IMG/VR virus record: IMGVR_UViG_3300028563_000031
Coordinates: 1 to 45,413 of that record
Strand: one strand, 5' to 3'
DNA length: 45,413 nt
Source: a virus
Both the position numbers and the translations under genes were made by a program. Positions 4,530-35,148 of the stretch are shown here, one piece after another; position 1 is the stretch's first letter, and the number at the start of each line of letters is the position of its first letter. A model generated the notes under the pieces. It had not been told where the DNA came from and made no database searches. It was given only the letters and a program-made list of their open reading frames with translations.

Positions 4530-6951
4530 CCAGCGTTGTTTGTCCAAAACTTAAATTTTCACTTTTAGTATGGTTATAAAGTATTTCAGGTACAAGAAAA
4601 TCAATTCCTCTAATCCGATATTTAACAGATCCATCATATTCGTTCAGTAATTTTTTAGGCCAGTAAATGAATGATTTGCAAATTTTAAAAATATCAACAT
4701 TAGAATAAACGGTTTCTTTTAGCATTTTCTCATATAAGCCTTTATTCGTATCCCAACGGATGTAAAAGTTTTCATCCGGATTGAAATTTCCAGCAAATGG
4801 AAAAACATCACCACTGGCCCAGGGTATATTTATATGTCCGGATTCGAAGGGAATTGATAATATTCCATGATAATACAACAACCGCGGTGCCATCTTTACA
4901 TCATTTTCAAAATACTTACATGATAAAGGCACATCCATTTTTGGAGTGAACTGCGTGCCTGATTTTACTGACAATAGCGGTGAAAATGCGCTTTCTACAA
5001 CAAAACCACCATTGCCAACAACCACATCGAGCAGGTTATAACATAAAAATTTCCACGTGTTATCAGGATTTAAAAAGCTTTTTGTAAAATAATAATAAGC
5101 ATTTTCGTCGATTACTAACCTAACATCATTGGTCTGACTATTTGTTAAAGGCAAATTGGCATGGCTGGCAACTGACGGCATTGGATTGTATTTATTCAAA
5201 TCAATAGCTTGCACTGGAAGCATGGTTTTTACAAAATCGTCGTTGCCATCTGCTTTAAAAGTTAACTTGTAGCCATCCAACCCGGGATTTTGAACGTCAG
5301 TAATTTCGCCCGCATATTCGGAAATATCAATAAAATCGGATGATAAAAGAATATCTTTCATCGTCTTGATTTTAACATCATTATTACGAATAAAAGTTAC
5401 AATACCTAATTTTAACCCTTCGTTTAAAAAGTCGTTAATTTTAATAGCAGGCATGTGATTTTTTGGATCAATGCCTGTAAAAACGCAACTTGTATTCAAT
5501 AATAAATTAATTATTCCCTGGTTTGCAATTTTAAAAGCGCTAAATGGATAATCAGGACTATTGGTTGTTGTCCATTTATTAAATAAAATTGAAAGGTTAT
5601 CTAAAGCAATAGTCCATGGCGCCGGTGCGTTTCCTGGGAAATAAATATATGCCTTTTTTGTATCAGCGGTATCGCCTTTAACAAAGACAAAACCAGAATA
5701 ATATTGATTAGTAAGATGATAAATAGCATTATTCCAGCTTCCACCTGGCATTGTAGGTATATCGGCGCCAAATTCAACAATCAATATATTTTCGTGAATA
5801 TATTGGTGAGATGTTGATATATTGCCCTGATCATCGAGAAAAGGAGCATCAGATGTAAGTCCTAATGTAATTGATGACGAAGTAAATGTTGTTTCCGTGT
5901 AAGCGCTACCCGACCAGGAATAATATTTTTGAGTGTCAAGCGCTTTATATATTTTGTCGGTTTCTCCGGGATTTGGAAATGCAGTTAAATTAGCAAATTC
6001 CAACACATCCTCGATTGTTAAAAATGTCGGGGCATATTCGGTGTAAGTTGAAAAATCTTCGCCTGTCAGTTTAAAATTAGTGGCATCCTGTACCTCAATT
6101 TGAAAAATACGGTTATTGATTGGCATTGAAGCAATACCGTCTAATTTTACAAATTGATTGGTAGTTAAATTATGCGGGATTACAGTAGTTGCAACCGGAT
6201 CGGTAGCAGCTGTAATTTTAGATATTATATTGTTTTCTATTTTCACAACGGTTGTATTTAACCCAAATTCATTGATCATGTAATTATTTGGTACTATCAA
6301 CCGACGTAGATCATCATTTTTGGCAAAAACATCCTCTGAAATTGTCATCCCGTTTTTACGGAAAATTGCCTGGTAAATATATTTAAGGTAAAAAAATGGA
6401 ATGATAGGTTTTTGATTTGCTCCGGAATCGTCAACAAAGTTCTTATTGATTGGATCAAATGTCATTACAACGCCCATGGTGGAAGCCGACTTATCACCTA
6501 CAGCAACCTGTGGAAATGCATAATCATATTCAATATCGGTACGGCTTAATTCGAGCATATAATCCCATATTGTGTTATAATTCAACACTGTATCGAATGC
6601 TATTTTATTGAATGAAATATCGGATAACATTTTATCAGCAATTGAAGAATAAAAATCTCCTGATTCTTTGAAATAGAAATGAAGCAAACCTCCTTGCAAA
6701 TCAAATTTAATGGTGCCAATCCTTACAATGATACCATCTGTTATTTTACAAGGCAATTCGTTTGTTTTGTTATCGGAAATATCAGGACGGTTGATAAAAC
6801 CACATATTGCACGGTTATTATCGGTTAAAGGCGCTGTATTTTCTAAGGAATATGATGTTTTTTGAGAAAATAACGGGATTGGCGATGTTAACGTCATTGC
6901 CAGGTCACCATCAAATTCGAATTTTTGGCCGTTTACTTCGATGGTATACAT
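4519..6951 (-). CDS. Large tail/appendage structural protein, 810 aa
   Basis: The last gene of the late cluster. It has no enzymatic motif I recognise and looks beta-rich. Residues about 244-306 (ITAATDPVATTVIPHNL ... GIASMPINNRIFQI) match the FCCH-like module (named after ubiquitin E1) that recurs in phage tail proteins. Residues 315-353 (DVLEFANLTAFP ... YYSWSGSAY) are a module also present in the 671-aa tail fibre. It starts directly at the stop of the 723-aa gene (1-nt overlap), so the two are coexpressed and probably assemble together in the distal tail or baseplate. Exact role is unknown. Confidence 0.75.
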   Translation of the reverse strand: MYTIEVNGQKFEFDGDLAMTLTSPIPLFSQKTSYSLENTAPLTDNNRAICGFINRPDISDNKTNELPCKITDGIIVRIGTIKFDLQGGLLHFYFKESGDFYSSIADKMLSDISFNKIAFDTVLNYNTIWDYMLELSRTDIEYDYAFPQVAVGDKSASTMGVVMTFDPINKNFVDDSGANQKPIIPFFYLKYIYQAIFRKNGMTISEDVFAKNDDLRRLIVPNNYMINEFGLNTTVVKIENNIISKITAATDPVATTVIPHNLTTNQFVKLDGIASMPINNRIFQIEVQDATNFKLTGEDFSTYTEYAPTFLTIEDVLEFANLTAFPNPGETDKIYKALDTQKYYSWSGSAYTETTFTSSSITLGLTSDAPFLDDQGNISTSHQYIHENILIVEFGADIPTMPGGSWNNAIYHLTNQYYSGFVFVKGDTADTKKAYIYFPGNAPAPWTIALDNLSILFNKWTTTNSPDYPFSAFKIANQGIINLLLNTSCVFTGIDPKNHMPAIKINDFLNEGLKLGIVTFIRNNDVKIKTMKDILLSSDFIDISEYAGEITDVQNPGLDGYKLTFKADGNDDFVKTMLPVQAIDLNKYNPMPSVASHANLPLTNSQTNDVRLVIDENAYYYFTKSFLNPDNTWKFLCYNLLDVVVGNGGFVVESAFSPLLSVKSGTQFTPKMDVPLSCKYFENDVKMAPRLLYYHGILSIPFESGHINIPWASGDVFPFAGNFNPDENFYIRWDTNKGLYEKMLKETVYSNVDIFKICKSFIYWPKKLLNEYDGSVKYRIRGIDFLVPEILYNHTKSENLSFGQTTLVKT

Positions 6952-9122
6952 TACGTTATGTTTTCAAGTTTAAGATTATCAATAATAATCCAATCGGTTG
7001 ATCTTAGAACATATGGAAATGAATCAAAGTCTAATACCATGTCTATTTCAGTAGCCAATATATTTGATGTAAAATCTAATGAATAATGACCTGGAGTACT
7101 AGCTTGTATACAATAATCCGGGTTGTAAGGTGTGTCAACATTCAACCCAATTATTACAACCAGGTTACTTCCTGATTTTTTTGAAATTAAATCAAAACTT
7201 AAGCGATATTTATTGCCAGCACGTATTATTTGCCAATTTGATGCCGCCGTATATATATTTCTACTAATGTTACTATCACACGAACATGGCGGGATATGGT
7301 TAGTTGTTGGATCCGGATAGTCTGGTACCGAAATTTTCATTTTATCCGAATCGGTTGAAATAGATACACCATAAAGATTAGGAAGCGTTGGATTTGGCAC
7401 ATTATAATTTGCCAATTGCGCTGTATTTGAAAAATCATCAAAGAAAAATGGAGTTAAAACAACTTCCGGAGGCGCAGGCTCTTCGCCTGTGAAATAATCA
7501 GTATTAAAATCAGGACTGAAATCACCTATTAAAATAGGTTCATTTGCGCTGAATTTTTCGGTAAAATCATCATGTATTGAATGAGTTATCTCTATATCAG
7601 CGTTCGGATTATAATCATCATCATCAATAGCAGTACGCTCATTATTTTGCGTAGTAATAGGGTAAGCCCTTCCAACTTTAAGCCAGTAAGCATCGTCACT
7701 ATCAAGAAACTGTTGTAAATAATCGGAATATTCCTTACTTACATAACCTGTATTGATTGTATAAGCTACAATAGTTGTATTACTTACCTGTATTTCTTCC
7801 TTGTCAAATTCAGAAAAATTAACAGGCAAAGGAATATTAACAATTTCCTTATTGTTTTTTGGTTTTTTTATTGCCTTACCTGTTGTGCGGATAAGATCGT
7901 ACACGCCTAAACTATTCTTAAATAAAAAGTACCTGGCATGTTTTTGATAGGTATAATCTATTATAAATGTACGAATTTCCGAAACAGCGTCGCCGCTATT
8001 ATTAACGATATAAACCTCCCATTTGACTAATTTTTTGGGAGCATTTGTCCTTATTTTATCAAAGCTGACAAAAAATTCACGTACATCATATTGCGCGGCT
8101 GTAAATGTAACTAAGTCGCGTTCGTCAACTGTATTATCTGTATAATATTGTTTTATATGCACTTTGTAAGTGCCGGTTGTTAAAAATGCGAAATAAAGTT
8201 TTTCCGGAGCATATATATCAGTTGTTTTTATGGGCGGGGCAAAGGTCAGGAACATGCCTGTTTCCTGTAATTTATCCAAAAATGTTTTTTGCAGGTCGTT
8301 CAACCGGCCTTGACTAAAATTACTAAACTTCCCCTGAAGAATATTAAAAACTGATGAAAATGCGCCACCACGTTCAATTGGTGGGTTTCCAAACTTTTCG
8401 AAAACATATATCTGGTACGATTCTACAATACTGTGTAAGGTTGTATATCCGCTAGGTACGGGGAAGGTAAAATTACCATTTATGCGTTTTTTTAAAATAT
8501 CAGCTATATCGACATTGATAATGCCGGTTTTATCGAGATCAAAACCAGATGGCAAATCATCATTATAAACAGCATGTTTAACAGGTAAATCGGACTGTGA
8601 AATGACCAACCCATTTTTTAATATATAAAACCCAATTTTGTAAAAATCTTCAATAGCATCTTCAGCAGGTAACTGATTAGTTGATAATAATCCTTCAAAT
8701 AAAGTAAATGTAATATCGTAATCTGAGCCGGGTTGGCGGGCATCAATGTGTATATTATTATTAGGATCGAGATATAAATTAAAATCCCTAACCAGAATTG
8801 CATTTTTAATTAATGAATTAAATACAAAAGCATTATATTCCCATGGATCTATTCGATTTGGAGAAGGAAAAGTAAAAGGGCCATCGATAAGTGGAGATGT
8901 AGAATCTTCACTAACAAGGATTAGTGAATTATTACCCCAGGCAAAAGTTATTGAATCACCCGGATAATAAAGTGTTAATGTTGTTTTGTCATAAAATGAT
9001 AATGTATATGATGCTTTTTGACCTTTGCTAACATATGCGTTTTTCCCGGCAACCTTTACGATCATTTGATTTCCTGTTAAGGATAAAAAGCCTGGCGAAT
9101 TTAGGATTGCGATGTTTGACAT
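6951..9122 (-). CDS. Large tail/appendage protein with C-terminal carbohydrate-binding-like domain, 723 aa
   Basis: A beta-rich structural protein. The N-terminal third (MSNIAILNSPGFLSLTGNQMI) resembles virion proteins of Bacteroidota phages. Residues about 560-723 form a separate domain with alternating strands (YRLSFDLISKKSG, HYSLDFTSNI, DWIIIDNLKLENIT) that reads like a CBM4/9-type jelly roll, a fold that binds sugars. Binding a surface glycan is inferred. The gene sits after a hairpin terminator, and its stop overlaps the start of the 810-aa gene. Together the two are candidates for a receptor-binding complex. Confidence 0.7.
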   Translation of the reverse strand: MSNIAILNSPGFLSLTGNQMIVKVAGKNAYVSKGQKASYTLSFYDKTTLTLYYPGDSITFAWGNNSLILVSEDSTSPLIDGPFTFPSPNRIDPWEYNAFVFNSLIKNAILVRDFNLYLDPNNNIHIDARQPGSDYDITFTLFEGLLSTNQLPAEDAIEDFYKIGFYILKNGLVISQSDLPVKHAVYNDDLPSGFDLDKTGIINVDIADILKKRINGNFTFPVPSGYTTLHSIVESYQIYVFEKFGNPPIERGGAFSSVFNILQGKFSNFSQGRLNDLQKTFLDKLQETGMFLTFAPPIKTTDIYAPEKLYFAFLTTGTYKVHIKQYYTDNTVDERDLVTFTAAQYDVREFFVSFDKIRTNAPKKLVKWEVYIVNNSGDAVSEIRTFIIDYTYQKHARYFLFKNSLGVYDLIRTTGKAIKKPKNNKEIVNIPLPVNFSEFDKEEIQVSNTTIVAYTINTGYVSKEYSDYLQQFLDSDDAYWLKVGRAYPITTQNNERTAIDDDDYNPNADIEITHSIHDDFTEKFSANEPILIGDFSPDFNTDYFTGEEPAPPEVVLTPFFFDDFSNTAQLANYNVPNPTLPNLYGVSISTDSDKMKISVPDYPDPTTNHIPPCSCDSNISRNIYTAASNWQIIRAGNKYRLSFDLISKKSGSNLVVIIGLNVDTPYNPDYCIQASTPGHYSLDFTSNILATEIDMVLDFDSFPYVLRSTDWIIIDNLKLENIT

Positions 9123-20600: not shown

Positions 20601-20730
20601 CAAACTCATCCTTGGTACTTTTTATTTCTTTCTTAAGATCTGAAGCTTGTTTGCTTAATTCGGCAAGTTTTAACCGCTGTGGATCGCTGTTAATTAAAAG
20701 ATCGAGTTGTATTTTATCAATTGTAAGCAT
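17689..20730 (-). CDS. Tail tape measure protein, 1013 aa
   Basis: The longest late gene before the lysis region. Residues 1-115 and about 215-640 are long coiled coils rich in Lys, Glu and Gln. A glycine-alanine hydrophobic region at about 800-850 (IAQILANTAVAIMAGYAQLGPIGG) is the membrane-active segment typical of tape measures. The C-terminus is Gly/Ser/Thr-rich and ends with a polar tail. At about 1.5 angstrom per residue this length predicts a tail near 150 nm. It follows the 153-aa gene with a 1-nt gap. The protein sets tail length and is ejected with the DNA. Confidence 0.93.
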   Translation of the reverse strand: MLTIDKIQLDLLINSDPQRLKLAELSKQASDLKKEIKSTKDEFEKATKMDSLKSLEKQMEDIRHEIGLDGLTMKELGQRSKELKFILANLAPDSDTFKSYKKELDDVTARQKELKGATEQSGGAFSHLKEIFTGVGLVELGKKGIELFKENFHEMVESTKTSGDQYNFAVAGMQSGLQYFYKTMVSGDWHNFIDNLSEAIAVGYQYAEMMDQVKEKTIALSINEAAEHAKNVQLEEDMRDRTKSLTERLEAGKARIENEKKMVKERVDVAQQEYDAQLLQLKSRTKLSEDEIKDIITFNSEKERLAGEDYNKLLEKRNTYEKAMQSLNAMAMSSGVAVPVTNDAEVAKLKAMDAELASYNPKIVAYAENLKKFGLGSDVMIEDYAKSLVKLTDAAVSGKENLKKINAMNSKNEVALRKETLDTELNQSANYYTQLEAKEKKRYADGQSSNAQFAMQMDIINQSRLRSEAAIYAKNKENFVNDKTQYSDIEKKITDINGKLLDFKVKQQEYINTILQSATSVIDIENQEYNDRLQKAGLFNIDQTNLTKEQKATLEILEASHAANLNKIAYDAAAKNQKDLESNAQDVIQMDIESGQQLIDARTDQYKQDLINAGNNLTARKDIEQKYNEDILTMKMGQLQTTLQIEKAFGLSTVATEKEIDALKVSITKDTVKQQDDLIKEYELTVKEYNLKSLVEQENDEIAALNAKHDAFKGNEDKFQAALLAIKLKYAQQYVQKYVTLLNTMSNIETGLQDVAITNNTTKYQKDLNDLEENHKKGIVSDTEYNKTKTEIATKQEEEEKSIKKKYADIDFAVKIAQILANTAVAIMAGYAQLGPIGGTVSAVLLGVLGGVEVAQANAQRQQVKALKTGGFTDTDSSNDKPVGIVHANEFVANADGVSNPTVKPVLDIIDIAQRSGTIHTINLPAILAAQNVNRGFANGGYTSSQTGSGSQGIPGRNNGNDQFLILLSAHTAALNKFNDHLDKGIKTDFNMHTFETIVKPRWEAQQADVTKS

Positions 20731-20731
20731 T

Positions 20732-21193
20732 CTATGCGGTTTTAAATGGATCGATCAATCTTTTTCTAAGGTCAAGGCGCACCGATTCAGAAAATCCATA
20801 ACTTATTCGGCCAACAAGTAAATTAAGCCTTCCCCAAACATTTTTATTATACCAGTTAGGCGCCTGTTTTTTATTTTTCTTAGACCTATCTTTAATGCCA
20901 TAAAGAATAGAATTAGTACTTACACGCGAACTTTCCCTTGCGCGTGACCTGTTTTTTCGGTACATTAACTCAACCAACCTACCTTTATCGGGAAATAAAA
21001 ATTTTATCCTGCCTCCCTTTTCGCCTTCTCTTGAGGTTATAAATGAAATTTCATCCCGTAAATGGTCATGGTCCTCTTTGCTTATTATATCCTTATCCAC
21101 AATTGAATTCACCATTAATTCACGAAGCTCAATTCCCCAGCGTTTAAGCTCCATCATTATAAAATTCCATTCCAGGTAATCCGATTCGGTCAT
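20732..21193 (-). CDS. Hypothetical tail-assembly protein, 153 aa, upstream of tape measure
   Basis: A basic protein (REGEKGGRIKFLFPDKGRLVELMYRKNRSRARESS) with a conserved-looking C-terminal segment NKNVWGRLNLLVGRISYGFSESV. Position immediately before the tape measure is that of tail assembly chaperones or minor tail proteins. It overlaps the 182-aa gene by 4 nt (stop and start share ATGA). No slippery frameshift site is evident here. The function is inferred from position only. Confidence 0.65.
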   Translation of the reverse strand: MTESDYLEWNFIMMELKRWGIELRELMVNSIVDKDIISKEDHDHLRDEISFITSREGEKGGRIKFLFPDKGRLVELMYRKNRSRARESSRVSTNSILYGIKDRSKKNKKQAPNWYNKNVWGRLNLLVGRISYGFSESVRLDLRKRLIDPFKTA

Positions 21194-21738
21194 AACAGGT
21201 TCATATAATTAACGTTAATTACCAGTTGCCATCCAATACTTTCACAAAGCCAGAAAGGATCAATTGGATCCAATTGAAAAGGATTGTCTAGCCAACGTTG
21301 TACAGGGCAGTTTTCACGATCGTCTTTTTTAAGAAAATTAATGAGTGTGGTCATGATTTCAAATGCCCTGGATGATTGAAGCATTTCTCCCATCGAATCC
21401 ATTTCTGATCCTGTCCAGTGACTCGCAATTGTTAATTGTACTGTCATCTTTGAGTCGCGAACCCTTACTTCGTTCATCGGACCACCACCAATGCCTCCCG
21501 GTTCAACCAACAGGAAATAACCATCTATGCCAGCAATACTTTCGGCTAACTTCTTATCGTTTGTGTAAACCACAAAATCAGTCAATTCAGGAATCAGGCT
21601 ATTCGGATCCATGGCTGATATATATGCTTTCAGATCGGCATATCCTGGAATGGTATCATCTTCCCGGGCAAAGTTTTTAACTACACCCTCCAATAATGGA
21701 TAACGTGCAAAATATTTTATAATATCAATTGGTACCAT
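21190..21738 (-). CDS. Candidate tail/neck protein, 182 aa
   Basis: A soluble alpha/beta protein. The pattern DGYFLLVEPGGIGGGPMNEVRVRDSKMTVQLTIASHW followed by SSRAFEIMTTLINFLKKDD resembles tail-terminator or neck proteins, which have a strand-rich core and a flanking helix. It lies 3 nt after the 320-aa gene and overlaps the 153-aa gene. Tail completion is a reasonable guess from order and shape, not established. Confidence 0.6.
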   Translation of the reverse strand: MVPIDIIKYFARYPLLEGVVKNFAREDDTIPGYADLKAYISAMDPNSLIPELTDFVVYTNDKKLAESIAGIDGYFLLVEPGGIGGGPMNEVRVRDSKMTVQLTIASHWTGSEMDSMGEMLQSSRAFEIMTTLINFLKKDDRENCPVQRWLDNPFQLDPIDPFWLCESIGWQLVINVNYMNLL

Positions 21739-25622: not shown

Positions 25623-27557
25623 TTATAAACCAGTAATATGTGCGCTATCCGGAATAGCTTTTGGTTTATATTGTTCACCATATAAACCCCATAATAGGTA
25701 CATTAAAGCTGAAGGTAGTTGCGTAGAAAACCAAACCTGATCTTCATATTCCAGTTTTACTTCGCTGGTTTTGTCAAGTTCAATTCCAAAACCTTTCTCT
25801 CTTTTTAGCGGGCTCATATAAATACAAGAGATTAATTGTTCACACTCATACTGGCAAATTCCTATGCGTGGGGTACGTTTCTCACGTTCACTGAGCAATA
25901 TTTCAAGTAACATAAAATGTTCCCAATAGAATATAGTGCGCTGATCGGAAGGTGTGCAAAGTTCAACCCTCCATCCGAGATCCTCCAGACAACGTTTTAA
26001 AATCGCTATGTCAGTCTTACCTTTTGGGTTATTTGCATATATTTCTTTGCGTTGATTACCGGCACGATCGTAATATATCCGCATGTATTTCTTTTGATGT
26101 GGCCTGAAGAATTCATTTATCTCCAGAGCTAAATCAAAATGTTGCCTGGGAGTCCAGACAAAGAAGTTTTTTAATACTTTGAGGTCATTTCCTTTCTCCT
26201 GGGCGATAACGCAACTCATAAAGTTGCCCGGATCGAATCCCATAAGCAAAGGTTTGCATGTATCGCAGTATTTAAGGTCAGCGCTAGTTCGCTTATATTC
26301 TCCCGCTACGTTTACATCATCAAAACCACCAGGTCCTTTATCATATTTATAACTGTCAGTAAAAATATGTTGCTTTCCAAACCAGGCAAAGAACATTTCT
26401 TTAACCCTGTCAGGCCTTATGCCTAAAATAGACAATAAAAACTTTGAAACGTTACTTTTAGCGCCTTTGAACTGACGTGTAATATAATCATTGCCCAAAA
26501 CAGCCAGATTACTGAAGGATGAACCTTTAATATATGACCATAATCCGGATTCTTCCTTACGTTTTTCGAGTAGAAAAGCCTTCCAACGATTAATAAACCT
26601 TGTTAATCGTAATATTTCGGCCTCCGCAGACTTAATTTTGGTTAATAAACCTGATTTTCTGGCTTCTTCAAGGTCTACTTCAGCATTTAAAAGCTCTCCT
26701 TCAGCTTTTAGAGTACGAAAAGCAATGTATTCAATCAAATCAAGTGCCGATCGGTTAACATTTTCTTCGTAATGCGTCCACCAGTCTTCATCGTTTTCAA
26801 AATTTGGAGTACTTGAGAATCCTGTCATTCCACCGAAATAGTGAGAATGGCCATATATTTCCCTGTCTTCACGTAAAGTTGGAAATACCCGTTCAACAAA
26901 ATCGGTTTCTTTAATGCGTAAAAGTTCGTCAACAAACACATGTACAACGCTTTTACCAATAATACTTTCAGGACGGTCAAGGCTTCCAAATAACAAAACG
27001 GTTCCCCACGCAAATGAAATGGTATGTTTCCATGATCCAACCGGAGTCAACGGCCTTTTAAAATGTTTGGGCGGCTCCTTGCCGTATTCATAATGTATAC
27101 CTCTAGTATAATGCTTACCCAAATATGTAATGATGCCTGGTACAATTGTATCCATGGCAAACGTATAAGTTGGAGCAACCAGCAACATTGTACTCCTGGG
27201 CATATCATAAGTAATGCGAACAATGCGGGGAGCGAACATCTCAGTAGTTTTGCCGGATCCTCGACCAACTTCACCAAGCAAATTTTGAGTGTCTGATAAT
27301 AAAACATGATGCTGAACAACAGTATTATATTTATCAATAAATTCTATATTACTGTTATAAAATCCAGCGACCATGCTCATTGCAAAAACACTCGACCCGG
27401 AGAAGTCAAAAAAACTATCTAAATTTAAGTGAGGAAGTATTGATATGATTAAGGAGAAAGCAACAATGGCGATGAGTAGCAAAGCAAATTTTCTCAGTAA
27501 TTTAAGTCTATAAAGAAAAATATTGCTTTGGCTTCTGGCTAATTGCTTTTTATTCAT
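25623..27557 (-). CDS. terL: Terminase large subunit with an unusual N-terminal membrane-anchor module, 644 aa
   Basis: The ATPase-nuclease that packages DNA. Walker A is GRGSGKTT at 98-105, Walker B is in VVHVFVDELLR around 203-213, and the nuclease acidic residues lie in MGFDPGNFMS (near 415) and MRIYYDRAGN (near 470). Unusually, the first about 70 residues precede the normal start of the domain and contain a basic patch (NKKQLARSQ), a hydrophobic helix at about 23-41 and SFFDFSGSSVFAMSMVAGF. This module recurs at the start of the 337-aa virion protein. A shorter start at M60 or M62 would remove it. It overlaps the upstream gene by 8 nt. Confidence 0.93.
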   Translation of the reverse strand: MNKKQLARSQSNIFLYRLKLLRKFALLLIAIVAFSLIISILPHLNLDSFFDFSGSSVFAMSMVAGFYNSNIEFIDKYNTVVQHHVLLSDTQNLLGEVGRGSGKTTEMFAPRIVRITYDMPRSTMLLVAPTYTFAMDTIVPGIITYLGKHYTRGIHYEYGKEPPKHFKRPLTPVGSWKHTISFAWGTVLLFGSLDRPESIIGKSVVHVFVDELLRIKETDFVERVFPTLREDREIYGHSHYFGGMTGFSSTPNFENDEDWWTHYEENVNRSALDLIEYIAFRTLKAEGELLNAEVDLEEARKSGLLTKIKSAEAEILRLTRFINRWKAFLLEKRKEESGLWSYIKGSSFSNLAVLGNDYITRQFKGAKSNVSKFLLSILGIRPDRVKEMFFAWFGKQHIFTDSYKYDKGPGGFDDVNVAGEYKRTSADLKYCDTCKPLLMGFDPGNFMSCVIAQEKGNDLKVLKNFFVWTPRQHFDLALEINEFFRPHQKKYMRIYYDRAGNQRKEIYANNPKGKTDIAILKRCLEDLGWRVELCTPSDQRTIFYWEHFMLLEILLSEREKRTPRIGICQYECEQLISCIYMSPLKREKGFGIELDKTSEVKLEYEDQVWFSTQLPSALMYLLWGLYGEQYKPKAIPDSAHITGL

Positions 27558-28197
27558 CAGATTCCTCCGTATCTGTAATATTCATACTGAGTGCGGCTTC
27601 TTCTTTTAACTTATCTTTTTGTTCAGTATTGATTGGGTAAGAATCAATGTTTTTGCAGGCATCCTTATATTGTTTTAAACGCTCACCGGCAATACTTTTA
27701 AGGTTGTATTCCTTTTTTCCTCCGAGCATTTTCCATGTTACTTCGGGCGAAAGAACGTGAACAATAGGATGAAGTTTTGTAGTATCAATTTCGTTTTCAT
27801 TAGGATTTTGCCTAAGTCTTGCGGCATCGATAAGACAACGGCGAGCGACTCCAAGGTTATCGGAGACAAGAGCGATATTGCTTAATTCTTCAAGTTTGTC
27901 AGCATAATAATCATTCCAGGCAGAATTCCGGACTGTACTATTGAGATGAAAATAGTTAATTGCCTCCCATATAATTTCACGGGCAGTATTAAAAGCTAAA
28001 TTAAAGTCAGGATATTTTTTAATTAATTCCCTTGCACACCTTGAAACTGAAGGATAACGACGTTGTAATTCAGGTACCCTATCCAATAAAAAGATATAGC
28101 GTTGCAGATCCTCCGCAATAGCATCACTTTTATTCGTAGTTAAAAAGGATTTAACGATATCAGGATGCAAACTTTCGAATCTTTCATGTAAACTCAT
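27550..28197 (-). CDS. Candidate terminase small subunit, 215 aa
   Basis: An all-helical soluble protein whose stop overlaps the TerL start by 8 nt. The region QRRYPSVSRCARELIKKYPDFNLAFNTAREII (about 44-75) reads like a DNA-binding helix-turn-helix as in small terminases, and the C-terminal part is acidic (KEEAALSMNITDTEESDE) as in subunits that contact TerL. No specific family can be named. pac or cos recognition is inferred from position and shape. Confidence 0.68.
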   Translation of the reverse strand: MSLHERFESLHPDIVKSFLTTNKSDAIAEDLQRYIFLLDRVPELQRRYPSVSRCARELIKKYPDFNLAFNTAREIIWEAINYFHLNSTVRNSAWNDYYADKLEELSNIALVSDNLGVARRCLIDAARLRQNPNENEIDTTKLHPIVHVLSPEVTWKMLGGKKEYNLKSIAGERLKQYKDACKNIDSYPINTEQKDKLKEEAALSMNITDTEESDE

Positions 28198-28490
28198 ATT
28201 GAATCGCTTATAGTTTCACCCAGATAATCGGAGATCATAAGGTTTGCCCTCATTTGTCTTTTAAGATTGATGGTTTCAATCTCTGCCTTGGCTGATAGAA
28301 GTTTAATATCTGGTCCCATTGTTGAATTGCCAAGCCGAAAAGCATCAAATAATTCAGAATCTTTGTTGGAGAATTCCATCATTATTTCAGATGGATTATC
28401 AGGATTGAGATAATCGGAAATTTCCTGCATGGTTTTGCCATGTTGAGCCATCTTTATAACTTCATTCAGTATATCAGCATCAAGGTTCAT
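28194..28490 (-). CDS. Small HTH-like packaging-cluster protein, 98 aa
   Basis: Residues about 10-30 (EVIKMAQHGKTMQEISDYLN) look like a helix-turn-helix, followed by a helical region (KLLSAKAEIETINLKRQMRANLM). It overlaps the 215-aa gene by 4 nt. A GTCCTTTA element is 42 nt upstream. A DNA-binding role in packaging, possibly as the small terminase itself with the 215-aa protein as an accessory, is an alternative reading. Confidence 0.65.
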   Translation of the reverse strand: MNLDADILNEVIKMAQHGKTMQEISDYLNPDNPSEIMMEFSNKDSELFDAFRLGNSTMGPDIKLLSAKAEIETINLKRQMRANLMISDYLGETISDSI

Positions 28491-28532
28491 TCAGTATTTT
28501 TGCTGCTAAATAACAACGGTTATGCCTGATAA

Positions 28533-28540
28533 TAAAGGAC
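28533..28540 (-). promoter_or_regulatory. GTCCTTTA late-module element, copy 3
   Basis: Minus-strand GTCCTTTA 42 nt upstream of the 98-aa gene, the first gene of the packaging module. Confidence 0.6.
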
Positions 28541-28605
28541 GATTGATAAAGTAGATTTTAATGGTAATATTTGACTTATTGCTTTTTTCATCATACTTTT
28601 GACCC

Positions 28606-28732
28606 GACGATTTTCAACATTCAAAAGTTTAGGCCTTATTACCCAAAGATAAAGAAGGTCTGGACGCATCAAAGGCCATGCGAAAGCATGGCTGTGGGTG
28701 TTGAAAATCGTCAATTTTCTGTCCAGGCCTTC
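28606..28732. other. Structured intergenic region with mutually exclusive stems
   Basis: Stem A pairs GACGATTTTCAACA (28606-28619) with TGTTGAAAATCGTC (28699-28712), a perfect 14-bp inverted repeat. Stem B pairs GAAGGTCTGGAC (28654-28665) with GTCCAGGCCTTC (28721-28732), 11 Watson-Crick pairs plus one position that is a G-U wobble only in plus-strand RNA. Inside is a hairpin GCCATGC-GAAA-GCATGGC with a GNRA loop on the plus strand. Stems A and B interlock, so the RNA would form a pseudoknot or switch. It could also be a cos/pac site beside the terminase genes. Confidence 0.6.
28620..28644. repeat. Imperfect direct repeat flanking the methyltransferase, copy 1
   Basis: The 25-nt segment ending in GCCTTATTACCC matches 29551-29576 with two substitutions and a 1-nt gap. 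The pair brackets the methyltransferase gene, suggesting the gene was gained or can be lost by recombination between them. Confidence 0.55.
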
Positions 28733-28738
28733 CCTCTT

Positions 28739-29541
28739 TTAAACTAAAGAATAATTCATTGTAAGTACTTCCGTTTTTTTCTTACCGTTTCCGGAGCCTT
28801 TATTGACACTTACTTCCATGTTAAAAGTTTTATTAATCCATTTGTTTCTCTTAGTATATTCAGTAAGTAAATCAGAAGGATAAGAACTTAGTATAAACTT
28901 GCCTTTAACTTCAGATAAAAGTTTTAGAAGGTTTTCAAAATCATCCTTTGAATATCCATCGTAATGGCCACAATCTGAATTATAATAAGGAGGATCACAA
29001 TAAAAAAATGAATCAATACTATCCCTGGAGTTTATAATTCGAAGCGCATCAGTGCATTCAATTTGAACATTCTGCAAACGAATTGCAAAGTCTTCGGTAA
29101 ATGATTCCCGCTTGTTTCTGATCTTCTTTGATGTTGTACATTTTTTGATATCATAACCCCAGGATCCGTCTAGTATTGAACTGAAACTTTGTGCAGCCAA
29201 TGCCCAAACCGCCCATGCTCTTTTAACTTCAGAAAACATGTGCGGATTGTTATAAATAACATCGGCATCTTTGTGCAATCTGCGACTGTGAAGCGAGATC
29301 CTTACTTCCTTCTCCAATCCGACAAAATCGTTCTGGACCACTCGGTAAAAGTTTATTAACTCATTGTTCGTATCGTTTATCACTTCAACCGCTGAAGGAT
29401 CCTTAGCGAAGAAAACGGCTGCTCCTCCAATAAAAGGTTCACAATAAAGTGAGTGTGGAGGAATTAATTCAATAATTCTTGTACATAGTTTTTGTTTTCC
29501 ACCATAATAACTGATTGGTGTTTTGAGGACTTTTTTTTCAT
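28739..29541 (-). CDS. D12-class adenine-N6 DNA methyltransferase (Dam type), start out of frame across an A8 tract
   Basis: Reading upstream of GTG 29383 in the same frame gives VLKTPISYYGGKQKL, then YCEPFIGGAAVFFAK (AdoMet-binding FxGGxA motif), VINDTNNELINFYR, and the catalytic DPPYY in FFYCDPPYYNSD. This is the motif set and order of D12 Dam methyltransferases. The only suitable ATG (29541-29539) is followed by eight A (29538-29531) and is one base out of frame. Nine A would give MKKKVLKTP and a 267-aa protein, the usual Dam length. A product begun at GTG 29383 would lack the cofactor motif. So the gene is phase-OFF, frameshift-dependent, or a homopolymer miscall. Confidence 0.88.
29531..29538 (-). 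repeat. A8 homopolymer after the methyltransferase start codon
   Basis: Eight adenines on the coding strand directly after ATG. One more base restores the frame of a full-length D12 methyltransferase. Such a tract is a typical slipped-strand phase-variation site. Confidence 0.8.
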
Positions 29542-29865
29542 TATAAAAGATTTAAAAGGTTAGTGCCTTATTACCCGTTAAATCAATTATTCAAATATTC
29601 ACTATTTATTTAGCCTCGGAAAAGACAAAACACTGAATAAAGTTATCATATGGAGGTTCTTTGCTGCTGATTTTAGTATTAAACCATTTAATTTCAAATT
29701 TTTGGTTCAAAAAATAAATTTTTCAAAAAATTTGTATCAATTTATTTAGCGCACCGCTGATAATTGGGTTTGTAATACAATGAACTTTCAAAACACAGAT
29801 ATATGACAAGCATTACTTTTTCAATTACTTACACTATAGATTTAATTTGAATTTTTTTTGGTAGT
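29542..29865. other. AT-rich non-coding gap upstream of the methyltransferase
   Basis: I see no credible gene in these 324 bp. They hold one copy of the direct repeat (29551-29576) and a very AT-rich stretch near 29690-29745 with a weak internal complementarity (CAAATT...AATTTG types). It is probably a promoter or leader for the methyltransferase. Confidence 0.45.
29551..29576. repeat. Imperfect direct repeat flanking the methyltransferase, copy 2
   Basis: Partner of 28620-28644. On the minus strand both copies read GGGTAATAAGGC, then a C/T-rich stretch and a short distance to ATGAAAAAA, so they could also be duplicated leader sequences. Confidence 0.55.
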
Positions 29866-30231
29866 TTATTTCGATATAAGTTGTTTCATCAACGATAATT
29901 TAGAAGAGTACTCTTCAATGATATGCATCCAGTCTGCACGTTCATCATCGTTCTTATACTTCTTATTGCTTATTTGAGAACGATATCGAGTAATGCTCTT
30001 ATCTGCATTGATCAAGTCACGCATAAACTTTTCAGGATCAAGTTTGCGCAATTGTTCTAATTCTTTTTCTAACTTATATTCTATTAATAGAGGGTGTTTG
30101 TATAGAAAGGTTTTGTTCTTCTCGTAATGGGATAGTTCGAGAAAGGCAATATGGTTACGTGTATCAGCATTAACAAAGGTCTGTGCAGTTTCATCATTAG
30201 CAGAATCAAGAATCGCGTCTAATCTTACCAT
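29866..30231 (-). CDS. Helical protein, 121 aa, probably the -1 frameshift extension of the upstream gene
   Basis: From ATG 30231 this gives a charged helical protein (EKELEQLRKLDPEKFMRDLI ... EEYSSKLSLMKQLISK). Its frame stays open 5' of that ATG through YPGINWTDINDKEIQLCHLLYEDRVYSYE with no start codon, right into the 3' end of the 247-aa gene and its A9 tract (30341-30349). A -1 slip there would fuse the two into a product near 398 residues. This resembles the G/GT tail-chaperone arrangement of lambda, though it sits in the head region here. Independent initiation at ATG 30231 is the alternative. Confidence 0.7.
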   Translation of the reverse strand: MVRLDAILDSANDETAQTFVNADTRNHIAFLELSHYEKNKTFLYKHPLLIEYKLEKELEQLRKLDPEKFMRDLINADKSITRYRSQISNKKYKNDDERADWMHIIEEYSSKLSLMKQLISK

Positions 30232-30308
30232 TGTTTCGTAAGAATAAACGCGATCTTCATATAGTAAATGACAGAGTTGTATTTCTTTGTCATTAATATC
30301 AGTCCAGT

Positions 30309-31052
30309 TTATACCTGGGTATTCTGTTCTTGGTCCCCGCTTTTTTTTTCTTTACTACCAGGGATAACAGTATCAGTTCCTTTGACCACTTCCTTAACAG
30401 GATCAACTACATCAGTCCCTTTTACTTCTTCCTTAATGGGTTCAGTTGTAGTAGTCCCTTGCCCTTCTTCTATATTATTGGTACTTGCATCAGTTCCTTG
30501 GCCTATGGTATTGAGTTCAGTCATGGTTGATTCTGTTGAACTATCAGGATACCCATTGTCTTGATCCTTTTCAGACTCTAATCCTGATTCAACTTGCTCT
30601 TCTGTTAATGATGCTGCAGTCAATAACAATTCGGCTTTCTTTGCTTTTAAAGCAGCCAAATAAGTATCGCCTTTATTATCTGAAGTTGGCAATAACAACC
30701 CAAATACCAAAGTCTTTAAAACATTGTATTTGTGTTTACCATCAAGATCGATTGCTAATAACTCAGTTTCAAACTCATTTAATTCTCCAACCTTTTTAAG
30801 AGGCACGATAAAGTTGTCTTTATCTTTTGTAAATCCTCTGCCTTCCCAAATGGTACAATCACAAACTGCGCTATTCATTAATTCATAACACATTCTTTCA
30901 TCCAATTCCTTTTTGTTGTATTTACCTGCCAATTCAAGATCAGGTAATAACTTGGAAGCCGGAAAAATCTTTTTATAAAGCTCCTTGTCGGCATCAAACC
31001 ACTTTTCGTCTGTGTGGTTCATTAAAAAATGATTGATTTCTTTGAATTCCAT
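30309..31052 (-). CDS. Late virion-assembly protein, 247 aa, with slippery 3' end
   Basis: The N-terminal 150 residues are soluble and look folded (EINHFLMNHTDEKWFDADKELYKKIFPASK ... YNVLKTLVFGLLLP). From about 165 it becomes low-complexity, with a repeat EEVKGTDVVDPV / EVVKGTDTVIPG, and ends in KEKKSGDQEQNTQV. GAA AAA AAA AGC (30350-30339) contains the heptamer A AAA AAA in the correct phase for -1 slippage. A GTCCTTTA element is 63 nt upstream, so it begins its own module after the virion protein terminator. Scaffold or tail chaperone are possible roles, not shown. Confidence 0.7.
   Translation of the reverse strand: MEFKEINHFLMNHTDEKWFDADKELYKKIFPASKLLPDLELAGKYNKKELDERMCYELMNSAVCDCTIWEGRGFTKDKDNFIVPLKKVGELNEFETELLAIDLDGKHKYNVLKTLVFGLLLPTSDNKGDTYLAALKAKKAELLLTAASLTEEQVESGLESEKDQDNGYPDSSTESTMTELNTIGQGTDASTNNIEEGQGTTTTEPIKEEVKGTDVVDPVKEVVKGTDTVIPGSKEKKSGDQEQNTQV
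30341..30349 (-). promoter_or_regulatory. Putative -1 ribosomal frameshift site (A9)
   Basis: Nine adenines on the coding strand, read GAA AAA AAA AGC in the 247-aa frame, allow tandem -1 slippage. The -1 frame then runs AAG CGG GGA CCA without stops into the 121-aa frame. A G-rich stretch follows at once, but I cannot define a stimulatory structure. Confidence 0.6.
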
Positions 31053-31115
31053 ATCGATAAGATTTAAAGTTAAAATTTAATATTTATTCAAATTAATGGT
31101 TTGGTTTTCAAACCT

Positions 31116-31123
31116 TAAAGGAC
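31116..31123 (-). promoter_or_regulatory. GTCCTTTA late-module element, copy 4
   Basis: Minus-strand GTCCTTTA 63 nt upstream of the 247-aa gene and immediately after the terminator U-tract of the preceding gene. This is the only copy with a longer spacing. Confidence 0.55.
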
Positions 31124-31125
31124 AT

Positions 31126-31155
31126 AAAAAACCCGCCCTGGCAAAAGGCGGGTTT
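31126..31155 (-). terminator. Rho-independent terminator after the 337-aa virion protein
   Basis: AAACCCGCC and GGCGGGTTT form a 9-bp GC-rich stem followed by T6 on the minus strand. It isolates the virion protein from the 247-aa gene. Confidence 0.88.
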
Positions 31156-31180
31156 AAAACTAACTAATCGAAACTAACAC

Positions 31181-32194
31181 CTAATTTCGGGATCCTGCAA
31201 CTTCGACAAATACATATGTTGCACCTCCAAATATTTTAAAGGAAATCTGTTTTCCTGCATTTGCAGTCCAGGTTGCACCACCAATTAGTAAAAATGTAGC
31301 TGAAGCTGCAATTGTACTTGGAAATGCCCCTCCAGATCCTTGAAGTGTAATAATCCTTCCGACATCAGAATCGGATGTTCCTGTTATTGCTGTAATTGCT
31401 TTTGCCGATGTGGCAGCTGTTGTTAATTGATAAACTGGATTAGAGGTAAGCAAAATAGTCGTTGCATCTGCAGCGACGGTTACTGGATCAGCTATTGGCG
31501 TACTACCAACATATTTATTCAGAATATCACCACATTCATTGGCAAAAGTGATTGTTGTGGCTGTTTTGTCTTTATCAGATCCACCATCAAATTTCGTCAT
31601 TCGAAGCGGCTTGCAGGAATTACCACCAATATAATTCTCACTTGTGGCACATATTTGCAAAACAACGTAAAACCCTTTGCCTATTCCAATCTTAAGATAA
31701 TTGAAAATATCTGTTGACATTCCTCCGATAATCAGAGTAATTTCAGTATTTATAACTGCAGCTATTTCACCTTGAGTACCTGACCATTTTAATGAAGGCG
31801 TATCAATAACGGAATCTATATATTTCCATTTTTCGCCCGCTTTTAAAGGAATATTGGCAACTTCGCCATTAATGGCTGCTGGAAATTGTTGTGTATCGTC
31901 CACCTGGGCCTGCTCAATAAACCATAATCGCGCTTTGATCTGCTTACCAATTTTTTGTGTATTATCCGGATCACCGTCAATATTTCCAAATCCACTGACC
32001 ACTCCTGCAGTTATTACACTTCCCGAACCGGCCAGGTCAAAAAAATGATCCATGCTCAAATTACCTGTAATTACTGAGCCAATAACATAAATGGCTAATA
32101 TAACCCCTATCGCAATGGCAAAGTTTTGTATGATTTTCATCCTGGAGCGTAAAACCTTGTTCTGGCTCCAGGCCAATTGTTTTTTATTTTTCAT
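31181..32194 (-). CDS. Mosaic membrane-anchored virion protein, 337 aa
   Basis: Residues 1-71 repeat the terminase N-terminal module: NKKQLAWSQ, a hydrophobic helix at 25-42, then DHFFDLAGSG ... VVSGFGN. Residues about 75-235 are a soluble domain with no family I recognise (KARLWFIEQAQVDD ... FYVVLQICATSENYIGG). Residues about 240-337 (AADATTILLTS ... AITAITGTSDSDVGRIITL ... FVEVAGSRN) match the C-terminal domain of the neighbouring capsid protein. It is flanked by its own terminator on each side. A capsid decoration or tail tube protein is possible; the membrane anchor is odd for either. Confidence 0.78.
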   Translation of the reverse strand: MKNKKQLAWSQNKVLRSRMKIIQNFAIAIGVILAIYVIGSVITGNLSMDHFFDLAGSGSVITAGVVSGFGNIDGDPDNTQKIGKQIKARLWFIEQAQVDDTQQFPAAINGEVANIPLKAGEKWKYIDSVIDTPSLKWSGTQGEIAAVINTEITLIIGGMSTDIFNYLKIGIGKGFYVVLQICATSENYIGGNSCKPLRMTKFDGGSDKDKTATTITFANECGDILNKYVGSTPIADPVTVAADATTILLTSNPVYQLTTAATSAKAITAITGTSDSDVGRIITLQGSGGAFPSTIAASATFLLIGGATWTANAGKQISFKIFGGATYVFVEVAGSRN

Positions 32195-32235: not shown

Positions 32236-32271
32236 AAAAAAATACCTGGCAATAGGATGCCTATTGCCAGG
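32236..32271 (-). terminator. Rho-independent terminator after the major capsid gene
   Basis: CCTGGCAATAGG and CCTATTGCCAGG form a perfect 12-bp stem with a 3-nt loop, followed on the minus strand by a run of seven T. A strong stop between capsid and the mosaic virion protein would set their relative amounts. Confidence 0.92.
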
Positions 32272-32279
32272 ATTAATGA

Positions 32280-34247
32280 TTATGTAGTTACCTTACGGCC
32301 AACTTCAACAAATTTGTTGTTCGATGCGTCAGTACTGTCGTCTCTGTTTAAATACAGATAAACTTCAAGGTAATCACCTACTGCGGTTGGAATCCATGCA
32401 TCAACCAGTGAAAATTTACCTGATTTTGCCGTTACGGAAGGATATGTTGCGCTTCCGCAGGTTATTCTGTAAACAATTCCTGCAACTGCATTCGTTATAT
32501 CCGTAATGGTGGGTGCCGATACTGCGTTAGCAATAGTTTGGAAAAACATTCCTTTGCTGGCATCACAGGTAGTTGCATTTGCTGCCAGAGCTATTGTAGG
32601 ATCAGTCATGAAAATGTACTGGTTCTGATAATTATCTGCTGTTAATGCAGCCAATGTTGCAAACTTTTTACCAACCATAATAGCATTTACGCCTTCTTTC
32701 CAGTAGCTATAAACCATCAGTTCTTCAAGATCGCGTTGCATTCCAATTTTTGCCATTTCACCGGCTTTATTTTCGATCAACTCAATATTACCTGGCATGG
32801 TAAGCCACATAAAACATAAATTACCCATGTTTGGAACACCCTGAATACTAACATCAGGATAATTCATTATAGTTGATTTATTTCCGGAATAATCCTGTTG
32901 TAATGCATAAGCGGCTCTAAATGCTGCATTGTACCAAGGTAAATGTTTTTCATTAACGTGCAGAACCATACCTTTTAATGAAGGAAGAACTTTATTCACA
33001 TCTTCAACAAAACTTTCAACATAAGTAAGAACAGTACTTTTTGTGTAAGTTGTATAAGCAGTAAAAGGTTGAAGACGGAAATCATTCCATGCCCATTTCA
33101 ACAATTTACGAATAACACCTGTAGAACCGTGCAAATGATGTCCTGCTTTTGTTAAAGTAGGTTCAACCCTGCAACCTAAGATACGGCGTTCATTCCATTC
33201 GTTCATCAGAACTTCAAGAATACGTGCCAACATCCATTCAATCCAGGTCCATTTCATAGGGTCACTGCCTTCACGATTCAGGTAACCAATGTATTCTTTT
33301 TCCAATTCTTTAAGATTTGAAAACTTATGTTTAAACATAAGGTCGAATACTTCAGCTTCGATTGGCTCAACTGATGCGCCACCTTTGAAAACACGGCCTC
33401 CTTGAAAAGATTGAGAGAAACTGGTTAAAAAAGCATTTGTCAATACTTCTTTATTCTGAACTCCATATCTTGTTGGAAAGATACCTGCAATTGAATTCAA
33501 AGTTCGGATATAAGCTATTAACGCATCCTGACGGCGAATAATATATTCTTCACCCCAACCGGTATTATCAAATCCCGTAAAATCAATGTCCTGCATTTTG
33601 ATTGAACCAAGCTTTCCTTCAGCTTGCAATTCACCCATACGGTTAGCCAATGTTTTGGCATAAGAACCAAGTGCTTTTTTAAAATCACTTTCGTACTCTT
33701 CCCAATTACCTTCCATTCCTTTATCAGCTGCAAATACTTCTAAAGGCCTACGGGTTGCAGCAACTATGTTCCAAGGTTTATCCATTGCAAATAAAGGAGC
33801 TTCAATGCCAAAAAGGTACTTTTCGGTAGTTTTACCGCCAGTAATTGGAATAACTTTTCCTTTTGGAACCACTTTTTTAGGTTCAGATGCTTCAGGTTCT
33901 TTTTTCAAAGCTTCAATTGTTTTTTCCTGTTCAACTACTTTTGTTTTAATTTCAATGACAGCCTCTGCAGTCGTTTTTGTTGGTTTTTCATCACCAAAAA
34001 CAGCCTTGATCGTTTCTTTTTGATCATCGGCCAAAGCCTGAATTTCCGTGTCAGTTTTATCACTACCATCGTCAGCGTCTCCGCCTTCCATAATAGCTTT
34101 TAGAACATCAGAAAAACTCATTTTAAGTTCTTCCTGGCATTTAGCCTCAATTTTTGCGAGTTCTTCTTTGGAAAGATCATCACCGCCGGTTTTCATTTTT
34201 GCGGTATATCCCAAAGCCGCAATAATTACTTTAAACTTCTTTTTCAT
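32280..34247 (-). CDS. Major capsid protein with fused N-terminal scaffold, 655 aa
   Basis: Residues 1-135 are acidic, with coiled-coil segments (KVVEQEKTIEALKKEPEASEPKK), and look like a scaffolding/delta domain to be removed by the adjacent protease. The main body (about 140-560) has features of HK97-fold capsid proteins of Bacteroidota phages (YIIRRQDALIAYIRTLNSIAGIFPTRYGVQ, RRILGCRVEPT, MVLHVNEKHLPWYNAAF). Residues about 560-655 form an added beta domain shared with the 337-aa protein. It follows the S49 protease with a 10-nt gap. Cleavage near KKVVPKGKVIPITGG is plausible. Confidence 0.88.
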   Translation of the reverse strand: MKKKFKVIIAALGYTAKMKTGGDDLSKEELAKIEAKCQEELKMSFSDVLKAIMEGGDADDGSDKTDTEIQALADDQKETIKAVFGDEKPTKTTAEAVIEIKTKVVEQEKTIEALKKEPEASEPKKVVPKGKVIPITGGKTTEKYLFGIEAPLFAMDKPWNIVAATRRPLEVFAADKGMEGNWEEYESDFKKALGSYAKTLANRMGELQAEGKLGSIKMQDIDFTGFDNTGWGEEYIIRRQDALIAYIRTLNSIAGIFPTRYGVQNKEVLTNAFLTSFSQSFQGGRVFKGGASVEPIEAEVFDLMFKHKFSNLKELEKEYIGYLNREGSDPMKWTWIEWMLARILEVLMNEWNERRILGCRVEPTLTKAGHHLHGSTGVIRKLLKWAWNDFRLQPFTAYTTYTKSTVLTYVESFVEDVNKVLPSLKGMVLHVNEKHLPWYNAAFRAAYALQQDYSGNKSTIMNYPDVSIQGVPNMGNLCFMWLTMPGNIELIENKAGEMAKIGMQRDLEELMVYSYWKEGVNAIMVGKKFATLAALTADNYQNQYIFMTDPTIALAANATTCDASKGMFFQTIANAVSAPTITDITNAVAGIVYRITCGSATYPSVTAKSGKFSLVDAWIPTAVGDYLEVYLYLNRDDSTDASNNKFVEVGRKVTT

Positions 34248-34257
34248 ATTGATTGAT

Positions 34258-35148
34258 TTAAGAATTAAATAATGATTTTATTTGTTGATTTTGAGCCTTA
34301 TTAAAGGCAAGTTGTATAATTTCATCGAATGGCATTACATTATCAATGAGGCCATTCATTTTTGCATTTATTTCGCCATAATTGGCAAAAAAGGTGCGCC
34401 CATTAAGCGTTCCTTCAACTGCGGGGTTAACGTTTGGCCGGTTAGTCTTAACTGTTTCCTGAAAATGAGTAGCCCATGGAGTGAGTTCTTCACTGATCAA
34501 TAATTCGGGGTTTCCTTTTTGGGCTTCAGTAATGGCTTTGTTTTTCCAATTGCTTTCGGGAGGTGTAACACGAATGAGTTTAATACCCATTTGTTTGTAC
34601 ATTTCATCATAGTTTGGAATATCGGCCATTACACCAATACTACCTACCTGGCACATTGGATCAATAGCGTTGATACTATCAAAGAATGAAGAGATGTAAT
34701 AAGCTGAACTCATGTCAATATTATCCACTGCAGCCAGGCATGGTTTGTTTTTCTTTGCCATGATCGCTTTCATTGGAAATATTGAATCAACTGTTCCACC
34801 AGGAGAGTTAACACGTGCCACAATTGCTTTGATGGCATCATTTTCAAATGCATCCTCGAACATGGCAGCAATATCTTCAGTGCCATAATCCCACCATGAT
34901 CCGGAACGAGTCAAAACTCCAGAAATGGGAATAACAGCAACGCCTTCCATTTCCTTGTCATCATCATTATTGCAGGGGTTGAGCATGTCATCGAAAATGC
35001 TCATTTTTAAAACAGGCTTATCAGGCAAGGTAAGAACCTGACCTTTGCTGATTGCTAATAAATAAGGATAGTATTTTACCATTGCTTCTGGAGTGACCAA
35101 AAGCGTACTGGTAAAAATTTCATCGAAGAATTTGGAATATTTCTGCAT
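34258..35148 (-). CDS. S49-family (SppA/protease C-like) prohead protease, 296 aa
   Basis: A ClpP/crotonase-fold serine protease. VNSPGG at 113-118 gives the oxyanion strand, MSSAYYISS at 146-154 contains the nucleophile Ser (S148), and GSIGVMADIPNY at 169-180 is the conserved loop; a Lys near 198-200 would complete the dyad. It precedes the scaffold-capsid fusion directly, as head-maturation proteases do. Its start codon lies 3 nt from the foot of a 15-bp perfect hairpin, and a GTCCTTTA element overlaps the other foot, so translation of the head operon may be controlled there. Confidence 0.9.
   Translation of the reverse strand: MQKYSKFFDEIFTSTLLVTPEAMVKYYPYLLAISKGQVLTLPDKPVLKMSIFDDMLNPCNNDDDKEMEGVAVIPISGVLTRSGSWWDYGTEDIAAMFEDAFENDAIKAIVARVNSPGGTVDSIFPMKAIMAKKNKPCLAAVDNIDMSSAYYISSFFDSINAIDPMCQVGSIGVMADIPNYDEMYKQMGIKLIRVTPPESNWKNKAITEAQKGNPELLISEELTPWATHFQETVKTNRPNVNPAVEGTLNGRTFFANYGEINAKMNGLIDNVMPFDEIIQLAFNKAQNQQIKSLFNS

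Follow-up and report, generated by a model that had tools for sequence, protein, structure and literature searches.

A membrane-anchor-like N-terminal module common to the predicted tail-tube protein and the large terminase subunit of a putative temperate siphophage

Tail tubes and terminases are usually regarded as cytosolic. Why, then, would the large terminase subunit (TerL) of a phage begin with the same hydrophobic segment as one of its virion proteins? This question was raised by a 45,413-bp virus record, IMGVR_UViG_3300028563_000031, the whole of which we call the window. A first-pass annotation had noticed the likeness between the N-termini of TerL and of a 337-amino-acid (aa) protein, had read it as a membrane anchor, and had taken the 337-aa protein for a head protein. 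Family matches identify integrase, primase, head maturation protease, terminase, tape-measure and endolysin genes in the window; its capsid and portal genes are assigned via position and orthology. It reads as the genome of a temperate siphophage whose relatives infect Bacteroidota. Our best explanation, which we hold at a probability of roughly one half, is that the 337-aa protein is a tail-tube protein bearing a membrane hairpin used in assembly, and that an in-frame copy of this hairpin on TerL brings the packaging motor to the membrane.

Aligned with BLOSUM62, residues 2-68 of TerL and residues 3-71 of the 337-aa protein scored 125, whereas shuffled controls (n = 1000) gave a mean of 24.5, a standard deviation of 4.6 and a maximum of 46. 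When the TerL module was run with phmmer against the 11,501 open reading frames (ORFs) of the window and its relatives, the 337-aa protein was the sole strong non-self match (8e-10). A profile built from the modules of relatives, both window proteins being left out, recognised the 337-aa protein with an independent E-value (i-E) of 1.3e-7 and TerL with an i-E of ~1e-6. Alignment, phmmer and independent profile thus bear out the annotated claim that the two proteins have a common N-terminal module. It extends over ~70 residues and comprises a basic stretch, a strongly hydrophobic helix, a short loop and a second, weakly hydrophobic segment. The membrane-anchor-like make-up proposed earlier stood; with its second segment, the module looks more like a hairpin than like a single helix. 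Pfam held no family for the module and returned scattered weak matches only.

The two copies were then compared at the DNA level, where they differ at 41% of bases. Over 69 aligned codons, differences numbered 29, 15 and 41 at codon positions 1, 2 and 3, respectively (chi-square p = 4e-5). The proportion of synonymous differences (pS) was 0.72, random pairing giving 0.74, and that of nonsynonymous differences (pN) was 0.33, random pairing giving 0.71. Because synonymous sites are saturated while pN stays well below random and the codon-position pattern is retained, the module is coding and has been maintained as a protein over a long time.

On TerL, the module is a lineage-specific addition. 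The AlphaFold2 model of TerL matches solved large terminases, namely those of D6E (Foldseek E 1e-11), Sf6 (gp2) and T4 (gp17), and places module helices at residues 3-40 and 56-76, with low confidence at 44-67, apart from the confident terminase core. We compared it with ~85 related TerLs, many of which are near-duplicates. In these the first methionine lies roughly 28-65 residues before Walker A, and none has the module. Like the window TerL, they begin where TerS ends. This ruled out a general terminase feature. The nearest TerLs (L009, L010 and L011, see Table 1 for identities) lack it, as do the TerLs of six genome-derived relatives (L090-L095). In the window, the TerL start codon overlaps the stop codon of the gene in the position of the small terminase subunit (TerS) (GATGAATAA), and the same junction occurs in the closest relative, L009, which is without the module. 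The L009 TerL begins MNNNTEFIKKYN at a like overlap and that of L010 begins at the same place; the window TerL has ~66 additional residues after its start codon, ahead of the L009-type beginning. The kept overlap and the coding signature support the annotated reading of the module from the TerL start codon. The first-pass annotation had set against this a start at M60 or M62 with an upstream similarity that decays in relatives. What we found is a segment wholly absent from relatives and carrying a coding signature here.

In a tree of modules, the TerL copy was sister to the tail-protein copy of its own phage (support 0.90). The simplest history would be an in-frame duplication, within this lineage, that set a copy of the beginning of the tail-tube gene in front of TerL; a close relative might instead have supplied the copy. 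The nearest TerL relatives sit on contigs too short to include tail-tube genes. Synonymous sites are saturated between the window TerL and its nearest relatives as well, so the date of the duplication is not resolvable. The mean score to relatives' modules was 36.9 for the TerL copy and 39.6 for the tail copy, and this near-equality argues against a long decay of the former. A DNA pattern for NKKQLAxSQ in IMG/VR retrieved only the TerL contig and an unrelated chance match (L102). With the module profile on 395 Bacteroidia genomes, a search of limited sensitivity in which ~15 candidates were scored per genome, no other TerL fusion was found. The same profile gave one tail protein (G001), three weak matches with internal stops, and a further weak match, L100, in part of a contig where the long ORFs resemble outer-membrane proteins.

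What is the 337-aa protein? Its AlphaFold2 model, made from a 38-sequence alignment, had a mean predicted local distance difference test (pLDDT) score of 85.9. For residues 84-235, nearly all of the top 50 matches in structural alignment (VIA) were tail-tube, neck-cap or Hcp proteins. Z values were 9.4 for 80alpha, 8.9 for SPP1, 8.6 for Hcp1 and 8.4 for lambda gpV, the best match having a root mean square deviation (rmsd) of 3.3 with 122 residues aligned. Matches of similar fold in BFVD were mostly ~170-200 aa long, hence too short for domain and module together, and two of them were named major tail or tail tube protein. In lambda gpV and T5 pb6, too, a tube domain is known to be followed by an immunoglobulin-like (Ig-like) domain (PMC8718954). 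The consistent VIA ranking, the BFVD matches and this architecture make a good but not final case, at the level of a predicted model, for reading the 337-aa protein as a tail-tube (major tail) protein that ends in an Ig-like domain; the head-protein assignment was accordingly abandoned. In PHROG the window protein had no match, and 21 of 38 relatives matched PHROG 19897, of unknown function; a PDB sequence search with the 337-aa protein gave no match either. A tape-measure gene is present and no other PHROG-named tail-tube gene was seen in that position, several tail-region proteins being without a match. An 810-aa protein (4519-6951) had a weak major-tail match limited to its residues 243-326.

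The C-terminal beta domain of the tail protein (residues 234-337) is related also to the C-terminus of the major capsid protein. The similarity, between 31283-31495 and 32403-32612 (both on the minus strand), scored 71, against a mean of 33 and a maximum of 61 in shuffles. It is a second domain common to proteins of this phage and is seen in relatives too.

We then asked how far the module extends among tail-tube proteins. The family was searched iteratively with the core (tube) domain of the 337-aa protein alone as query, whole-profile iterations having drifted onto capsid and terminase via shared domains. Relatives were found at ~45 distinct loci, directly downstream of the capsid gene where checked. 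When either the 337-aa protein or the capsid protein served as the sole query, IMG/VR gave no close relatives. Nearly all relatives begin with a basic stretch (often KKQxAxS), a hydrophobic helix, a short acidic loop and a second weak hydrophobic segment, after which come an IGNIDDVSD-like motif and the core domain. Between pairs of relatives the pN/pS of the module was 0.07-0.38, a constraint similar to or slightly weaker than that on the rest of the gene, as expected for a module under purifying selection. By these comparisons, the module belongs to the tail-tube family of diverse Bacteroidota relatives and is near-universal there. Beyond the window, the search placed the module in tail-tube proteins; no phage match came from tblastn with the TerL module as query. 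One locus, L024, carries two tail-tube genes, both with the module, at 6482-7498 and 20656-21660 on the plus strand, ~13 kb apart. Where a tail-tube relative lacks the module, its sequence begins precisely with the core; on the loci of such relatives (L063, L066, L077, L094, L095 and L008) a stand-alone module gene was sought and not found, so that the module seems to behave as one unit, gained or lost whole.

The membrane reading rests on hydropathy and charge in 47 modules, that is, TerL, the window tail protein and 45 relatives. All of them display the membrane-segment pattern of a ~19-residue hydrophobic helix with a positive-inside flank: the Kyte-Doolittle mean of the helix is at least 2.0 (2.0-3.1 over 19 residues), the net charge of the N-terminus is at least +5, and the loop is nearly without lysine or arginine. 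The second hydrophobic segment is weak (mean 1.5). This charge pattern fits a probable inner-membrane hairpin with the N-terminus inside and the following domain left in the cytoplasm. What we infer is membrane insertion, a two-pass topology, tethering during assembly, later cleavage and a benefit to TerL. A basic N-terminus in the cytoplasm would be followed by a transmembrane helix, a short acidic turn in the periplasm, and the second weak segment leading back to the cytoplasm. Such a hairpin would keep freshly made subunits of the tail tube at the inner membrane, with their assembly under control. Hydrophobic helices left uncleaved would crowd the tube, so the module would probably be removed before or during tube growth, or be kept on a minor form alone. 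The in-frame copy on TerL would also bring the packaging motor to the membrane, near the site of tail, and perhaps prohead, assembly. Membrane tethering of TerL is plausible, and the conservation of its amino acids would argue that the copy does something on TerL.

Several observations weigh against this explanation. The TerL fusion is known from one lineage, represented by two identical contigs. Module-free tail-tube proteins that start at the core exist in L063, L066, L077, L094, L095 and Cellulophaga phage Ingeline_1, and the module is therefore not needed for tail assembly in all relatives. Given the weak hydrophobicity of the second segment, a single-pass topology with the following domain in the periplasm is possible. 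Lastly, Foldseek of the tail protein against the PDB gave nothing below E 0.001.

The strongest competitor to the assembly hairpin, although one we consider clearly less probable, is a leader or propeptide that is cut off in every case, by the phage protease or a host signal peptidase, and that does no more than block premature polymerisation of the tail tube; the TerL copy would then be a cleaved passenger and mature TerL soluble. Module-free relatives indeed start where the module ends, and a head maturation protease, a speculative candidate for leader removal, is encoded next to the capsid gene. The n- and h-regions of a Sec signal peptide are present, and signal-peptidase-like EPASA motifs follow the helix in some relatives. 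Core proteins of Porphyromonas gingivalis prophages, major capsid proteins included, have predicted signal peptides that the prohead protease is believed to remove (PMC10367356), which is the nearest hint to the module in the literature searched. Yet the two window copies lack a conserved cleavage motif, neither window protein has a clear EPASA-like site, and the amino acids of the TerL copy are more conserved than a pure passenger requires. Chance similarity of hydrophobic N-termini, or an assembly chimera, we rate as close to nil: hydrophobic segments do resemble one another and the fusion is confined to one lineage, but the alignment score far above shuffles and the recognition of TerL by an independent family profile rule out chance, and a chimera is ruled out by a second IMG/VR contig (L003, 10,735 bp), identical over its full length with the TerL module included, and by the divergence of the two copies, whose codon-position pattern is not expected of a chimera.

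A different way to spare TerL its anchor would be an internal start, at M60 or M62, producing most of the protein, the module being vestigial or carried by a minor membrane form, and the tail protein likewise existing as long and short forms. Two ATG codons do lie at the end of the TerL module, and a methionine occurs within 8 residues of the module end in 30 of the 45 tail-protein relatives. We nevertheless find an internal start unlikely, as the first TerL ATG retains the stop/start overlap used by L009, the codon-position pattern and low pN show translation of the module, and the window tail protein has no ATG at its module end. Still less likely is a helix buried in a protein complex, for instance docked on portal, tape measure or chaperone, rather than in a membrane. 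The weakness of the second segment would suit such burial; the hydrophobicity of the first, its basic flanks and the loop nearly free of lysine and arginine are, in 47 of 47 modules, typical of membrane segments.

The hairpin explanation can be set beside known systems. The siphophage tail-tube proteins lambda gpV, SPP1 gp17.1 and T5 pb6 share the tail-tube fold with the window protein, and gpV and pb6 share its C-terminal Ig-like domain; the window protein differs in its added N-terminal basic and hydrophobic module of ~75 residues and in the site of its gene, which immediately follows that of the capsid protein, a long way from the tape-measure gene. Prophages of P. gingivalis (phage032a_KCOM2801, BK068113; PMC10367356) have the same order of protease, capsid, module-bearing tail-tube protein and TerS-TerL-portal. 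Their tail-tube protein is annotated as hypothetical, its module is shorter than that of the window, and their TerL is without one. The window TerL shares the ATPase and nuclease fold of the D6E, Sf6 and T4 enzymes and is alone among the TerLs examined in having an N-terminal membrane-like module. A precedent is the T4 prohead (gp20/gp40), which is assembled bound to the membrane and then released by proteolysis (PMC8718954). The likeness is one of working principle, with no homology claimed: T4 uses a separate membrane chaperone and the step concerns the head, whereas the window phage would carry its anchor as part of the tail-tube subunit and of TerL themselves. The word "transmembrane" is absent from the text of a tail-tube review (PMC8718954), and the literature searched, which left out most subscription papers, yielded no account of tail-tube proteins or terminases with a membrane leader; this is weak evidence of absence.

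Table 1. Features of the two module-bearing genes and their neighbours in the window
Feature	Position	Strand	Basis
TerL, large terminase subunit with N-terminal module, 644 aa	25623..27557	-	PHROG_2 terminase large subunit, E 6.5e-8; AlphaFold2 model matches D6E, Sf6 gp2, T4 gp17
TerL module, aa 1-69: basic stretch, hydrophobic helix aa 24-42, DSFFDFSGS, second weak hydrophobic segment	27351..27557	-	homology to tail-protein module
TerL ATPase and nuclease part, aa 70-644, Walker A GRGSGKTT aa 98-105	25626..27350	-	81/73/50% identity to L009/L010/L011; fold match
Gene directly upstream of TerL, TerS position, 215 aa; stop TAA overlaps TerL start (ATGAATAA)	27550..28197	-	sequence
Tail-tube (major tail) protein with N-terminal module, 337 aa (predicted)	31181..32194	-	AlphaFold2, structural alignment, relatives in ~45 loci
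Tail-protein module, aa 1-75, hydrophobic helix aa 25-43	31970..32194	-	conserved in 45 relatives; purifying selection in relatives
Tail-tube domain, aa 84-235	31490..31945	-	structural alignment range
C-terminal Ig-like beta domain, aa 234-337	31184..31495	-	aligned to tailspike C-terminal domain, Z 8.9; part-similar to capsid protein C-terminus
Major capsid protein, 655 aa, directly upstream of tail-tube gene	32280..34247	-	orthologous position and annotation in Porphyromonas phage032a
Head maturation protease	34258..35148	-	PHROG_53 head maturation protease, E 2.4e-39

Among the neighbouring genes (Table 1), the 215-aa gene is a putative small terminase by its position, without a family match, and the PHROG match of the major capsid protein is PHROG_21862, whose function is unknown in PHROG. 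The tail-tube gene lies between two strong terminator-like hairpins on the minus strand, of which the first follows the capsid gene (32245-32271, 12 pairs) and the second the tail-tube gene itself (31129-31155, 11 pairs), as if these genes were separately controlled, highly expressed units. A Dam-type DNA methyltransferase (PF02086) lies at ~28739-29540 on the minus strand. Its N-terminal part, SYYGGKQKL...EPFIGGAAVFFAK, is intact and in frame with no ATG nearby, the nearest ATG being in another frame before a run of eight A, and the gene looks frameshifted or phase-variable at this run.

Taken as a pattern in sequence, the module suggests that virus particles may be built at the host inner membrane. 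We tentatively extend this to a broader view, doubtful as it is, in which Bacteroidota siphophage tails would be built on the inner membrane from anchored precursors and, in the window phage, packaging would be co-localised with them via a transferable targeting module. A conserved membrane-type leader on the tail-tube protein implies an assembly step lacking in textbook siphophages, and the group of phages with the tail leader is widespread, in gut, oral and environmental settings. The tail part can be put to the test in culture, with Bacteroidota prophages whose tail protein carries the module. As for TerL, the natural transplant of the leader offers, ready made, a way to ask whether packaging can be relocated to a membrane.

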